Below are positions 14,677 through 38,038 of a stretch of 64,000 nucleotides of DNA, piece after piece. Position 1 is the stretch's first letter; every line of letters starts with the position of its first letter. The notes beneath the pieces were generated by a model. It was not told the DNA's origin and ran no database searches. It was given only the letters and a program-made list of their open reading frames with translations. The position numbers and the translations under genes are program-made. This DNA is from Mycolicibacterium holsaticum DSM 44478 = JCM 12374 (GTDB taxonomy: Bacteria; Actinomycetota; Actinomycetes; Mycobacteriales; Mycobacteriaceae): NCBI RefSeq assembly GCF_019645835.1, contig NZ_CP080998.1:4030001-4094000 (forward strand), given 5' to 3'.

Positions 14677-15481
14677 AGTCGGCGGGGCGGAGGTGGACGA
14701 TGTCGCCGGCCGACACCTTCGTCGACTGCCCGTCGGCGTCGATGTCGAGCCTGCCCTGGTCGTCGATGTCACGGGCGACCCCGACGATCTCGCGCCCGCC
14801 CGGCAGCATCGCGCGCACCGGCCTGCCCAGGGTGAGGCTGCGGGCCCGGTAGTCGGCGATCAGGGCGGGGTCCGCCCCCTCGTTGCGTCGCCACGCCTCG
14901 ATGCGACGGCCCAGTTCGTGCAGCACCCGTCGCAGCAGGTCCTGGCGGTCCGGTGCGGGCACGCCGAGGTCGACCAGTGAGGTGACACCGGGCACGCCGA
15001 TCTCGTCACCGCGCAGCGACACGTTGAGGCCGATGCCGACCACCACCGCCTGGCTGGCCGCGGCCACCTCGGCGAGGATGCCCGCCAGCTTGCCGTCGCC
15101 GGCCAGCACGTCGTTGGGCCACTTCAGCCCCGCCTGTACGCCGCTGTCGGCGACCGCGTCGACGATCGCCACCCCGGTCGCCAGCGGCAACCACCCCCAG
15201 GCCTGGCTGGGCACCGAGGCGGCGTCGACGCCGACGGACATCGTGATCTGCGCGTAGGGCACCGCTGACCAGCTTCGGCCCTGCCTGCCGCGGCCGGCGG
15301 TCTGGTTCTCGGCGATGAGCACGGCGCCGTCGATGACCTCGCCGCGATCCGCGCGGGTGATCAGGTCGGCGTTGGTGGAGCCGGTCTCGGCCACCACGTC
15401 AATGCGACGCCACAGCGGCGATGTGCCGATGACGCTGTCGCGCAACGTCGTCTCGTCGAGCCGAACCCGGTCAGCAGTCAT
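14675..15481 (-). CDS. birA: Biotin-[acetyl-CoA-carboxylase] ligase BirA
   Basis: Activates biotin to biotinyl-AMP and attaches it to the carboxylase carrier lysine; AccA3 in this window (Lys565) is a natural substrate. The 268-residue class I (no DNA-binding domain) ligase shows ETGSTNADL, the GRGRQGRSW biotinyl-AMP loop, LKWPNDVL and the GIGLNV block. ATG 15481 overlaps the end of the upstream LIP gene by 11 nt and is preferred over an upstream in-frame ATG at 15511. Corresponds to Rv3279c. Confidence 0.94.
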   Translation of the reverse strand: MTADRVRLDETTLRDSVIGTSPLWRRIDVVAETGSTNADLITRADRGEVIDGAVLIAENQTAGRGRQGRSWSAVPYAQITMSVGVDAASVPSQAWGWLPLATGVAIVDAVADSGVQAGLKWPNDVLAGDGKLAGILAEVAAASQAVVVGIGLNVSLRGDEIGVPGVTSLVDLGVPAPDRQDLLRRVLHELGRRIEAWRRNEGADPALIADYRARSLTLGRPVRAMLPGGREIVGVARDIDDQGRLDIDADGQSTKVSAGDIVHLRPAD

Positions 15482-16727
15482 CGGGGGCGGGCCTTCCTGC
15501 GAAGCGGTCATCTATCCAGTCGAGCATGCCCAAGGCGTCGCCCGGATTGTGGCCCCCTTCCGGGTCGAAATCGATCGTCACCACCCCGCCCAGTGCGCAG
15601 GCCTTTTCGATCGCCGACCTGGTCCATTCGGCGTCGATGAACGGGTCCTTCCCGCCGTAGAACACGTAAAGCGGTGCCGACAACGGCTTTTGGGGTAACG
15701 TCCACGCCTTGAGCAGCCGGCGCAGCCGCTCGGCGGCCTGCGGGCCGCGTGGGGTGAACTCGCGCGGCCCGATCCGCTGGATCGCCGCCGCGCGACCGTA
15801 GGCGCCCTCCTCGGTGCAGTCCGACAGCTCGTCCCAGTGCCGTGCGGCCTCGAACCGCCGGTAGTTGTCGCGGTCGAGGTCGGGATGCAGGCGCGCCAGC
15901 GACTCGACCACGGCCGCCATGACGGGTCGCTGCTCGACGGTCAGGGTGCCCTGCGAGGCCTTGGACACGATGCCGGAGATGTCGGCGGCCGGCGACGACG
16001 CGATGGCCCCGACGAGGTCCAGTTCCGGCGCGTACCCGCGCGCCTGCTCGTCTGCCGCCCACGAGGCGCCGCCGCCCTGGGAGTCCCCGAGCGCCGCCCA
16101 CTTCCCGGACACGTCACCGAACGTGTTCCGCAGCGCGCGCACCGCGTCGATCATGTTGAGCCCCGCGGTGCGGGCGTCCGAATAGGGGTGCACGCCCTTC
16201 ACGCCGAGCCCCTGGTAGTCGGGCAGCGCGACGGCGTACCCCAGCCGGGTGAGGACCCGCACCACGTGCACGAGGTTCTGCAGGCTGGGCGACAACGACG
16301 GCCCGCACGGCGGATCGATCCCCAGCGTGCCGTGGCCGAACGCCACCACCGGCCATCCGCCTTCCGGAGCGCTGCCCTGCGGGGTGAACACCGAGCCTGA
16401 CACCACGGTCGGAGCGCCAGTGTCACCGGATGTGGACCGGTAGACCACCCGGGCCGCCCGCAGTTGTCGGCCCTCCACGGTGCGGGTGACCCCGGGCATC
16501 GTGGTCGCCGACACCAGCGAGCCGGGACCGGTGCCTGTCGTATCGGCCGAGTCGACCGGCACCGGAGGCCCGCCCGATGACGGGAACTGGTTCAGGAAGC
16601 CGATGGTGAGCATCGTGGCGACCGGTCGCAGCGGCACGGCGACCAGCGCGCCGGCGACGACCACCACGAGCGCGACCGCGACGGCGAGCAGCACTGTGCG
16701 CGTCGTGCCGCCGCGTTGGCCGGCCAT
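15471..16727 (-). CDS. LIP-family secretory lipase-like alpha/beta hydrolase (paralogue 1)
   Basis: A 418-residue exported alpha/beta hydrolase of the secretory lipase (LIP) type. An N-terminal TM segment (about 10-35) anchors or exports it; there is no lipobox. The catalytic triad is complete: Ser216 in GDSQGGG, Asp361 in GGKDPF and His393 in GGHNP. ATG 16727 is preferred over the upstream GTG 16751 because GAGGAG lies at correct spacing. The substrate is unknown; as the first of four paralogues in an exopolysaccharide locus, a polysaccharide acyl ester is a reasonable guess. It overlaps birA, so the insertion joins the backbone operon here. Confidence 0.85.
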   Translation of the reverse strand: MAGQRGGTTRTVLLAVAVALVVVVAGALVAVPLRPVATMLTIGFLNQFPSSGGPPVPVDSADTTGTGPGSLVSATTMPGVTRTVEGRQLRAARVVYRSTSGDTGAPTVVSGSVFTPQGSAPEGGWPVVAFGHGTLGIDPPCGPSLSPSLQNLVHVVRVLTRLGYAVALPDYQGLGVKGVHPYSDARTAGLNMIDAVRALRNTFGDVSGKWAALGDSQGGGASWAADEQARGYAPELDLVGAIASSPAADISGIVSKASQGTLTVEQRPVMAAVVESLARLHPDLDRDNYRRFEAARHWDELSDCTEEGAYGRAAAIQRIGPREFTPRGPQAAERLRRLLKAWTLPQKPLSAPLYVFYGGKDPFIDAEWTRSAIEKACALGGVVTIDFDPEGGHNPGDALGMLDWIDDRFAGRPAPDDC

Positions 16728-17043
16728 GAATCTCCTCGGTCTCCTGTTCACGTCGTCGTCGCGCGCGTCACCGCAACCACCAAACCTAGGCCAGGCGCGT
16801 CAGGCGCGGCGCCGGCGACTCGGCGAGAATCGGGTTCCGCGAACATCCGCACGGCCGGTGCGGGCGTTTCGGCGTTCACTGGCGACCGCCCGGTGCGAGC
16901 CGTTGTACGGTGCGAATTATTTTGCGGTGGACGCCGGGGCCGCATTTGCAAATGCGCGTCCACCGGTACCATTTTTGCGTTGCTGGCTTCCGATACCCCC
17001 CGGCAGAGGCAATTCGCAATGTGGATAGCTGGGCGGGGTTTGA
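16728..17043. other. Non-coding gap with nested palindrome
   Basis: 316 bp without a convincing gene. The segment 16900-17000 is AT-richer than its surroundings. It contains an inverted repeat with 10-nt arms (16925-16934 and 16956-16965), whose 21-nt loop itself holds a perfect 14-nt palindrome (16942-16955). It is downstream of the sugar transferase gene and upstream of LIP paralogue 1. Confidence 0.7.
16925..16965. terminator. Nested inverted repeat, terminator or operator candidate
   Basis: Arms CGGTGGACGC and GCGTCCACCG enclose the palindrome GCATTTGCAAATGC. On the minus strand it lies 79 nt after the sugar transferase stop, so it could terminate the exopolysaccharide transcript; the inner palindrome could equally bind a dimeric regulator. 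Confidence 0.45.
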
Positions 17044-37235: not shown

Positions 37236-37241
37236 TATGCT
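37236..37241 (+). promoter_or_regulatory. -10 element TATGCT before methyltransferase gene
   Basis: GGTATGCT followed 2 nt later by GCCACG and, before the start, by GGAGTAAA. This leader closely resembles that of the gene at 33877 (spacer 38 versus 36 nt to the start codon). Confidence 0.55.
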
Positions 37242-37279
37242 TTGCCACGCCGTCGCCCCGAGAGTTCCGGAGTAAAACC

Positions 37280-38038
37280 ATGACTAACGAAGGCGTCAAT
37301 TTGACGGCGTCCCGCGCGAGCGGACGTGTTAGCTACCGCGATATCGAAACGCTGTGGAAAGGCTACGACGAATACGTCCGCGAGCTGGCGTTGCGCGAGG
37401 GTGCCCAACACATCGCCGAACTGGGCGGCGGGGCCAACCCGGTCCTTGCCGACGCGGACCGATGGGGGTTCGCCGCGCACCGCATCGTCGTCGACATCTC
37501 GGCCGAGGAGCTGGCGAAGGCCGGCGGCGACGTCGAAACCCGGGTTCTGGACCTGTGCCAGCCCGTGCAGGACGGTCGCGAAATGTACGACGTGGTGTTC
37601 TCCAAGATGTTGTGCGAGCACGTGCCCGACGGGCATGCGTTCCATCGGAACTGCTTCGATCTGCTGCGCCCCGGCGGCCTGGCGGTGCACTACTTCCCGA
37701 CCCTGTACACGCTGCCGTTCGTGCTGAACCGGCTGATCCCCGAACAGGCCGCACGCACGCTGCTGCGCAAGATCCAGCCCGGGCGCATCGACGACCCCAA
37801 GCACGACAAGTTCCCGGCCTACTACCGCTGGACCACCGGCCCCACCAAGCGCGCGATTCGGCGCTTCGAGAGCGTCGGGTTCGAGCTCGAGCAGTGGCAC
37901 GGCGCCTTCGGCCATCACTACTACCACCTGGTCAAACCGCTGGACGCCCTGGAGAAGGCCAAGTCCCGGTTCCTGCTCAAACACCCGGTGCCCGCGCTGA
38001 CCAGCTTCGCCGTCGTCGCGCTGCGCAAGCCTGCTTAA
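37280..38038 (+). CDS. Class I SAM-dependent methyltransferase
   Basis: A 252-residue methyltransferase-11-type protein: motif [12 protein letters not shown], acidic end [21 protein letters not shown] (motif IV region), [14 protein letters not shown] (motif VI region). Likely modifies a sugar or lipid in the adjacent exopolysaccharide pathway. ATG 37280 has GGAG 9 nt upstream. It is the last gene of the insertion before accD5. Confidence 0.82.

Follow-up and report, generated by a model that had tools for sequence, protein, structure and literature searches.

What do four lipase-like proteins do inside a gene cluster for the synthesis of a surface polysaccharide? The question is raised by a locus in the genome of Mycolicibacterium holsaticum DSM 44478 = JCM 12374 (5.62 Mb, single contig), which we analyzed within a stretch of 64,000 nucleotides (NZ_CP080998.1, positions 4,030,001 to 4,094,000; hereafter the window, in whose coordinates positions are given). 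Between 15471 and 38038 the window holds a parts list of the Wzx/Wzy type, with a priming transferase (PGT), a flippase, a polymerase, two Wzz-type co-polymerases (WzzK and WzzB), three GT4 glycosyltransferases, acyltransferases, an esterase and a glycosidase, and interleaved with these are four paralogues of the family PF03583 (LIP1 to LIP4; 64-78 bits each against a Pfam cut-off of 23). A first-pass annotation had placed a Wzx/Wzy locus with four LIPs between birA and accD5 and had called it a complete Wzy-dependent pathway; all the parts it named were recovered in place, by Pfam and NCBIfam matches and, for the flippase, by the predicted fold. The pathway is one in which, as shown by sequence and fold, PGT would prime the polyprenyl carrier, the GT4 enzymes would build the repeat unit, Wzx would flip it and Wzy polymerize it, with WzzK and WzzB as co-polymerases. 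Our reading, which we hold to be about evenly poised between right and wrong, is that this surface-polysaccharide locus, shared by environmental mycobacteria and related mycolate-bearing genera, carries a dedicated LIP-Wzz module, in which LIP1-3 would serve acyl tailoring and LIP4 would be a non-catalytic partner of the co-polymerases.

Gene order and distribution of the LIP-Wzz module

Within the window, the genes of the coupled LIP/Wzz run meet in the junctions TAGTG, ATGA, ATGA, GTGA and TGATG, with a 32 nt overlap between LIP2 and the SASA esterase, so that the overlaps of 1-32 nt noted earlier could be confirmed from the sequence. Because the genes overlap, the LIP and Wzz proteins are probably co-produced. 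To place this arrangement in a wider setting, named genomes were scanned with an alignment of LIP1-3, and the best 80 of 444 matches yielded 62 loci, chiefly of Mycobacterium/Mycolicibacterium but also of Williamsia, Rhodococcus/Rhodococcoides and Gordonia. The closest among them is that of M. elephantis DSM 44368 (L044), which has 13 genes in common with the window, their proteins being 82-92% identical. Gene order could be counted in the 45 loci that show both Wzz genes, which stem from related species and are not independent events: the order WzzK-LIP-Wzz-LIP was found on one strand in 44 of them, and in the exception (L057) WzzB is displaced together with two LIPs. A search for this order in actinobacteria had been proposed with the first-pass annotation, and among related loci the order is evidently the rule.

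Since these loci had been found via their LIPs, a survey led by WzzK was run over 148 Mycobacterium genomes. The WzzK-like proteins that it returned fall into two groups, 18 strong matches of 464-1134 bits and 84 weak ones of at most 278 bits. Each of the 18 strong matches has a LIP at most 164 nt away and two to seven LIPs within 20 kb; 18 of the 148 sampled genomes carry the LIP-Wzz locus. Among the 84 weak matches, LIPs within 10 kb were seen in a single case, next to the LIP locus of G171; for three more (G024, G075 and G170) a lone LIP lies 17-18 kb off. Given this difference, the LIPs are tied to one Wzz lineage. An order-wide sample gave a similarly narrow distribution, with matches to the LIP alignment (A1, E 1e-70) in 18 of 298 genomes; these belong to 4 of 66 genera, each within the family of the window. 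The candidates scored per genome were the best 12 for LIP (1e-50), the best 9 for WzzK (1e-30) and the best 6 in the order-wide sample (1e-70).

The first-pass annotation had also named what would speak against its proposal, namely LIP genes of the same type occurring equally often away from polysaccharide loci. For LIPs of at least 430 bits this is not what we found (61 inside and 5 outside the locus, two of the latter, on G132:C375, looking like a split-off remainder of the locus of that genome), but a related type of LIP that scores below 430 bits is commoner outside the locus (37) than inside (17). The view of a complete Wzx/Wzy locus to which the LIPs belong integrally and specifically is supported.

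The positions of the LIPs also relate to their descent. From 222 LIP matches in the 62 named loci, three further genomes and the window, 212 distinct sequences of at least 330 residues were kept and assigned to slots (1, 2, 2p, 3 and 4) on the basis of neighboring genes; with five lone LIPs added, the alignment comprised 217 LIPs. On a FastTree tree, for which the program issued a warning on long branches, the slot labels cluster: slot 4 requires 2 changes (mean of shuffled labels 43.5), slot 1 requires 3 (23), slot 2p 5 (19.4), slot 3 7 (45.9) and slot 2 9 (31.9). This bears on an alternative in which the LIPs have no role in the polysaccharide and their genes are those of lipases that hitch-hike at a hotspot of recombination. 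The interval between birA and accD5 is indeed a variable hotspot (see below) and the genus is rich in PF03583 proteins, yet hitch-hiking fits poorly with the slot-clustered tree, with an order that other genera keep in loci that showed no birA in their vicinity, and with the association of 18 of 18 strong against 1 of 84 weak WzzK proteins, where the single case sits next to a LIP locus. By these counts it is already largely refuted, and we consider it highly improbable.

Tethering and catalytic state of the LIPs

The LIPs had initially been described as secreted. This has to be revised, as they are predicted to be membrane-tethered: LIP3 and LIP4 start with a lipoprotein signal (lipobox), and LIP1 and LIP2 with an anchor helix. 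The signal types of the 212 LIPs, which were called with a pattern of our own and not with SignalP, follow the slots to a large extent. A lipobox was found in 45 of 48 slot-4 and 43 of 51 slot-3 LIPs, in none of the 24 slot-1 and none of the 20 slot-2p LIPs (anchor helix in 19 of 24 and 19 of 20, respectively), and in 7 of 34 slot-2 LIPs, 25 of which have an anchor helix. The 35 LIPs without a slot are mixed (14 lipobox, 14 helix, 7 neither). Going by these signals, most LIPs would be anchored on the external side of the cytoplasmic membrane, where Wzy and Wzz act.

The designation of the four proteins as LIP-type hydrolases holds for LIP1-3, which keep the Ser-Asp-His triad, but not for LIP4, which has lost Ser and His. 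LIP4 belongs to PF03583 by fold, yet going by its residues it is no working member, Ser being replaced by Gly and the catalytic His lost. Across the 217-LIP alignment the three residues are kept in all 129 LIPs of slots 1, 2, 2p and 3. Both Ser and His are lost in 18 of the 48 slot-4 LIPs, in the five added lone LIPs and in 4 of the 35 slot-less LIPs (the displaced LIP4 of L057, and L052, L090 and L092); 28 of the slot-less LIPs are intact, those of L094 and L096 have Ser but lack His, and that of L091 is cut by the end of the locus. Loss of Ser was always accompanied by loss of His (27 of 27), and the state of the Ser changes 5 times on the FastTree tree. Among the carriers of the locus, Mycolicibacterium frederiksbergense LB501T (L060) has an intact slot-4 LIP and M. 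llatzerense (L086) a dead one. For slot 4, a hand-chosen alignment (A2) was made of 37 slot-4 LIPs (from 33 of 44 references, three further genomes and the window), 4 slot-3 LIPs and LIP1-3 of the window.

A search of 5.8 billion proteins with LIP4 of the window gave 233 matches (own copy included), and all 120 listed lack both Ser and His. The corresponding search with a slot-4 LIP of Rhodococcus gave 586 matches, and in the 120 listed 120 of 121 domains have both residues. The odd domain comes from a double LIP of M. madagascariense (P0161, L111:13201-15462, minus strand), which was split into two halves; the N-terminal one lacks Ser and His and the other is intact. P0161 lies on the opposite strand inside a LIP locus with seven LIPs. 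Tandem pairs were also seen off the Wzz locus (L090:8861-10990 and L092:8867-10987), again with a dead first copy and a second copy with Ser and His.

That LIP4 might be a decaying pseudogene was considered and rejected. The ratio of nonsynonymous to synonymous substitution rates (dN/dS) between the window and L044 is 0.19 for LIP4 (414 codons), compared with 0.23 for LIP1, 0.14 for LIP2, 0.25 for LIP3, 0.20 for WzzB and 0.15 for WzzK, and both losses are common to all of the 120 listed homologues. Moreover, a structure model of LIP4 (pLDDT 91, pTM 0.90) adopts the fold of Candida antarctica lipase A (CAL-A; Foldseek TM-score of about 0.7). As far as sequence can tell, LIP4 is therefore a maintained, well-folding and non-catalytic protein, which in the window lineage lost Ser and His together and is, to judge from the dN/dS value, retained by selection; with these residues gone it cannot be a Ser-His hydrolase in that lineage. 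The dead LIP is labeled 'lipase family protein' or 'pimeloyl-ACP methyl ester carboxylesterase' in some sources, which is likely a misannotation, and its state provides a handle on function.

The state of LIP4 bears on a second alternative, in which the LIPs serve maturation or turnover, removing acyl groups from the finished polymer for scavenging and release, and have no special link to the co-polymerases. The presence of the SASA esterase and a glycosidase within the locus and the intact triads of LIP1-3 are in keeping with such a role. However, a LIP lies between both Wzz genes in 44 of 45 loci, and a conserved non-catalytic LIP4 makes little sense as a degradative enzyme, so that we regard turnover as quite unlikely.

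Dead LIPs also occur in another setting. Of the 37 LIPs below 430 bits that lie elsewhere than in the locus, we looked at 25 and found that 17 lack Ser and His and 8 have the triad. Fifteen of the 17 dead ones lie directly before the gene of a membrane esterase (1-204 nt, same strand, a fusion included), as against none of the 8 intact ones (Fisher p 4e-5, the rows not being independent). These esterases are 53-57% identical to the membrane esterase of genome G119, and the two that were scanned match PF00756. The G119 gene (L113:8356-10956, plus strand) is a single 866-aa frame that links a dead LIP to a PF00756 esterase and, as judged by eye, to hydrophobic stretches. The pairing of a dead LIP with an envelope acyl enzyme therefore recurs, which favors a role in recognition or as an adaptor.

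Other LIPs were met in passing. Lone LIP2-like genes occur in strains that also carry the locus (L068, L076, L080 and L081, around positions 10000-11200), the one in L068 being flanked by genes for a protein with a transpeptidase domain and a GT1-like glycosyltransferase. In the genome of the window itself, a distant LIP (L037:5507-6706, minus strand; G000:C1:4015951-4016259) lies 14 kb ahead of the window start and is 31-36% identical to LIP1-4 over part of its length.

The pathway genes and the birA-accD5 interval

By our own gene reading, the interval between birA and the gene that we take to be accD5 holds 19 genes, which are listed in Table 1 together with the flanks. No Rfam model reached its gathering score between 12000 and 42000.

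Table 1. Genes of the polysaccharide locus and its flanks (TM, transmembrane segments; ORF, open reading frame).
Feature	Position	Strand	Evidence
birA, biotin protein ligase, flank; start overlaps LIP1 end	14675..15511	-	Pfam BPL_LplA_LipB + BPL_C
LIP1: predicted N-terminal anchor helix + PF03583, intact triad (GDSQGG, D, H)	15471..16727	-	
PGT, polyprenyl-phosphate hexose-1-phosphate transferase (priming)	17044..18546	-	PF02397 (Bac_transf) 220 bits; TIGR03025 409 bits, cut-off 295.6
SASA-family carbohydrate esterase; ATG at 19777, 32 nt overlap with LIP2	18884..19777	-	PF03629
LIP2: predicted N-terminal anchor helix + PF03583, intact triad (GGSQGG)	19746..20990	-	
AT3, membrane acyltransferase 3	20990..22255	-	PF01757 (Acyl_transf_3) 81.5 bits
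LIP3: predicted lipoprotein signal + PF03583, intact triad (GVSQGG)	22252..23505	-	
WzzB, second co-polymerase, two TM, without ATPase domain	23502..24170	-	PF02706 24.3 vs cut-off 25.5 bits
LIP4: predicted lipoprotein signal + PF03583 pseudoenzyme (GSGQGG, catalytic His lost)	24167..25411	-	sequence + fold
WzzK: Wzz domain fused to BY-kinase-like P-loop ATPase	25411..27015	-	PF02706 over cut-off + PF13614 (AAA_31)
Wzy, O-antigen-ligase/polymerase type, ~12 TM	27115..28557	+	PF04932 (Wzy_C) 32.5 vs 31.7 bits
Glycoside hydrolase, GH10/GH5-like, signal-like N-terminus	28723..30252	+	PF00331/PF00150/PF08310
GT4 glycosyltransferase a	30260..31408	-	PF13692
Wzx, MOP-superfamily flippase	31335..32522	-	predicted fold; top PDB match WzxE
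GT4 glycosyltransferase b	32578..33714	-	PF13692
227 aa ORF, methyltransferase-like by eye, no Pfam match	33877..34560	+	
Hexapeptide-repeat acyltransferase a	34557..35240	-	PF00132
Hexapeptide-repeat acyltransferase b	35253..35933	-	PF00132, PF14602
GT4 glycosyltransferase c	35938..37074	-	PF00534
SAM-dependent methyltransferase	37280..38038	+	PF08241
accD5 (presumed name), acyl-CoA carboxylase beta, flank	38073..39713	+	by eye from translation; best same-genus matches 87-91% identical

Several of these assignments deserve comment. Wzx of the window has no match in Pfam or the PDB by sequence, one of six orthologues that were scanned matches PF01943 (below cut-off), and our own hydropathy count gave 7 TM only. 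Its AlphaFold model (pLDDT 82, pTM 0.81) has the solved WzxE (9g9p) and MurJ as top matches, and on the basis of this predicted fold, the sequence searches failing, we assign it to the MOP superfamily of flippases. Wzy has no NCBIfam match, and its sequence is compatible with a polymerase as well as a ligase, between which sequence cannot tell. WzzB reaches 29 bits with TIGR01006, far below the cut-off. WzzK scores 92.6 bits against the autokinase model TIGR01007 (cut-off 108). Its Walker A motif reads GDGRTT, with Arg replacing Lys, and there is one Tyr within its last 60 residues; considering both features, WzzK of the window may not be a tyrosine autokinase. The Walker A pattern G[DE]GR[ST]T was seen in 23 of 55 WzzK proteins (the pattern misread or missed the other 32), and the last 60 residues contain no Tyr in 52 and one in 3 of the 55. 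Finally, the glycosidase has a match to the LGFP repeat near its C-terminus, a repeat known from corynebacterial envelope proteins.

The position of the locus is less special than its content. Among 37 genomes of the genus, that of the window being one of them, 32 have the two flanking genes on one contig, with a gap of at most 307 nt in 7, of 1.6-6.3 kb in 16 and of 18-42 kb in 9, and 4 of these 9 large gaps hold LIP loci. The insertion between birA and accD5 is therefore present as first described, but it is one of several cassette types, and the idea that insertion at this site is unique to the LIP system could be discarded. Other intervals contain a PGT (G021 and G027) or a GT2 glycosyltransferase (G004), and that of G028 (L137) contains a Wzx/Wzy/PGT set with a Wzz match just under the cut-off and no LIP. 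In mycobacteria the interval is a hotspot for differing surface-glycan cassettes (L134-L139), and the patchy presence of the locus suggests exchange at this hotspot. A recently acquired foreign island was considered and rejected, as the locus, with a GC content of 0.64-0.71, differs little from its flanks (0.65-0.73) and no plasmid record matched LIP3 at E 1e-30.

Because the G028 cassette lacks a LIP, LIPs are not required for Wzy polymerization as such; they belong to one cassette type and not to Wzy systems generally. The same cassette is relevant to a third alternative: acting as deacylases or lipid esterases on envelope components such as trehalose mycolates and lipoglycans, the LIPs would open or remodel the mycolate envelope to let the polymer out, in place of Wza. 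When the locus proteins were scanned with Pfam and NCBIfam, no family of Wza-type outer-membrane exporters was recovered, a search that did not extend to the rest of the genome, and this is in line with a LIP-mediated exit, as are the predicted tethering of Ser hydrolases at the membrane and the restriction of high-scoring LIPs to the family of the window in the order-wide sample. On the other hand, G028 indicates that export does not generally need LIPs, and the fixed positions of the LIPs and their tie to one Wzz lineage suggest work on the polymer. Envelope opening seems rather unlikely to us.

A proposed acylation module and its relation to known systems

Returning to the LIP-Wzz module, LIP1-3, AT3 and the SASA esterase would together tailor the nascent polymer with acyl groups. 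LIP1-3 would most likely transfer long-chain acyl groups from an envelope lipid to sugar hydroxyls in the way of CAL-A-type enzymes in water, or else trim such esters. LIP4 may bind the acylated glycan as a non-catalytic partner of the co-polymerases and so couple acylation to chain length or to the hand-over towards the mycolate outer membrane. In a more specific version, which we put forward tentatively and would sooner doubt than accept, the module is an undescribed machine for polymer acylation, built from a pair of co-polymerases and lipoprotein subunits of the lipase fold with LIP4 as a dedicated pseudoenzyme; its product would be a polysaccharide decorated with lipid that could reside in or on the mycolate outer membrane, and the LIP fold would have been recruited more than once as a non-catalytic partner for enzymes of the envelope, for Wzz here and for a membrane esterase elsewhere.

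Several observations weigh against our main reading of the module. Thirty of the 48 slot-4 LIPs keep the triad, so that the loss of catalysis is not essential to slot 4, and dead LIPs are not confined to that slot, as an additional LIP3-like copy in L052 is dead as well. Slots 2 and 3, with their 9 and 7 changes, are not clean clades. A Wzx/Wzy/Wzz cassette without LIP exists at the same hotspot in G028, and the 37 lone LIPs below 430 bits outside the locus show that the fold also serves other roles. In addition, single genes may have been missed, because only the best 12 or 9 candidates per genome were scored.

Among the titles and abstracts listed in searches of the open-licence literature we found no description of a LIP-Wzz locus, nor of a Wzx/Wzy polysaccharide of mycobacteria, and the initial remark that no capsule system built around several lipase-like proteins is known stands within those listings. 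Wzy-dependent EPS (exopolysaccharide) clusters of Actinoplanes missouriensis are the subject of a 2026 paper (PMC13390465). Environmental species carry these parts, which are conserved and separable, so that the synthesis, acylation and retention of a hydrophilic polymer at a mycolate outer membrane without a Wza in the locus are directly testable.

Among known acyl-modifying systems, AT3-SGNH pairs for O-acetylation place a membrane AT3 beside an extracytoplasmic acyl-handling domain; in the window locus the partner fold would be a LIP instead of SGNH. CAL-A and CpLIP2, lipase-acyltransferases of PF03583, share their fold with LIP4 and the Ser-Asp-His triad with LIP1-3, but the LIPs of the window are bacterial, predicted to be membrane-tethered and encoded in a glycan locus, and LIP4 is without nucleophile and catalytic His. 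Relatives of CAL-A are reported to carry out acyl transfer in water with long-chain donors (PMC7383625). The nearest solved relative by sequence profile is the LipA esterase of Xanthomonas oryzae (PDB 3H2G-3H2K, E 6e-21 to 7e-21), which is also among the best 12 fold matches of the LIP4 model; it differs in acting on the plant wall (a role taken from the PDB titles) and in lying outside any synthesis locus.

A product of the kind that the LIP-Wzz module would make, by analogy, is the fatty-acid-containing EPS (FACEPS) of Rhodococcus, an acidic EPS to which palmitate and stearate are ester-bonded, as described in PMC12786566 and PMC5852497, and the hosts are likewise mycolate-bearing. The review (PMC12786566) does not mention 'wzy' or 'gene cluster', and a second paper on Rhodococcus EPS (PMC12298843) gives antiSMASH clusters without the words 'wzx', 'wzy' or 'lipase'. 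The FACEPS producers, which include the Rhodococcus strains PR4, ATCC 53968 and ATCC 12674, could not be named as carriers: no R. erythropolis or R. rhodochrous label was present among the 120 of 586 matches listed for the slot-4 LIP of Rhodococcus, which is no test of the matter. The module may nevertheless supply genes to seek behind the fatty-acid EPS of related actinomycetes.

Finally, Wzx/Wzy loci for EPS and capsules, of the Gram-positive type and of E. coli group 1, share with the window locus the PGT, the GT4 enzymes, a MOP flippase, Wzy, Wzz-type co-polymerases and genes for acyl modification. The window locus differs from them in several LIP paralogues that overlap the wzz genes, in two co-polymerases of which only one has an ATPase domain, in its mycolate-envelope host and, compared with the E. 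coli group 1 capsule, in that no Wza exporter was found in the locus. The pathway is thus of a known kind, and the LIP-Wzz module is what is new.

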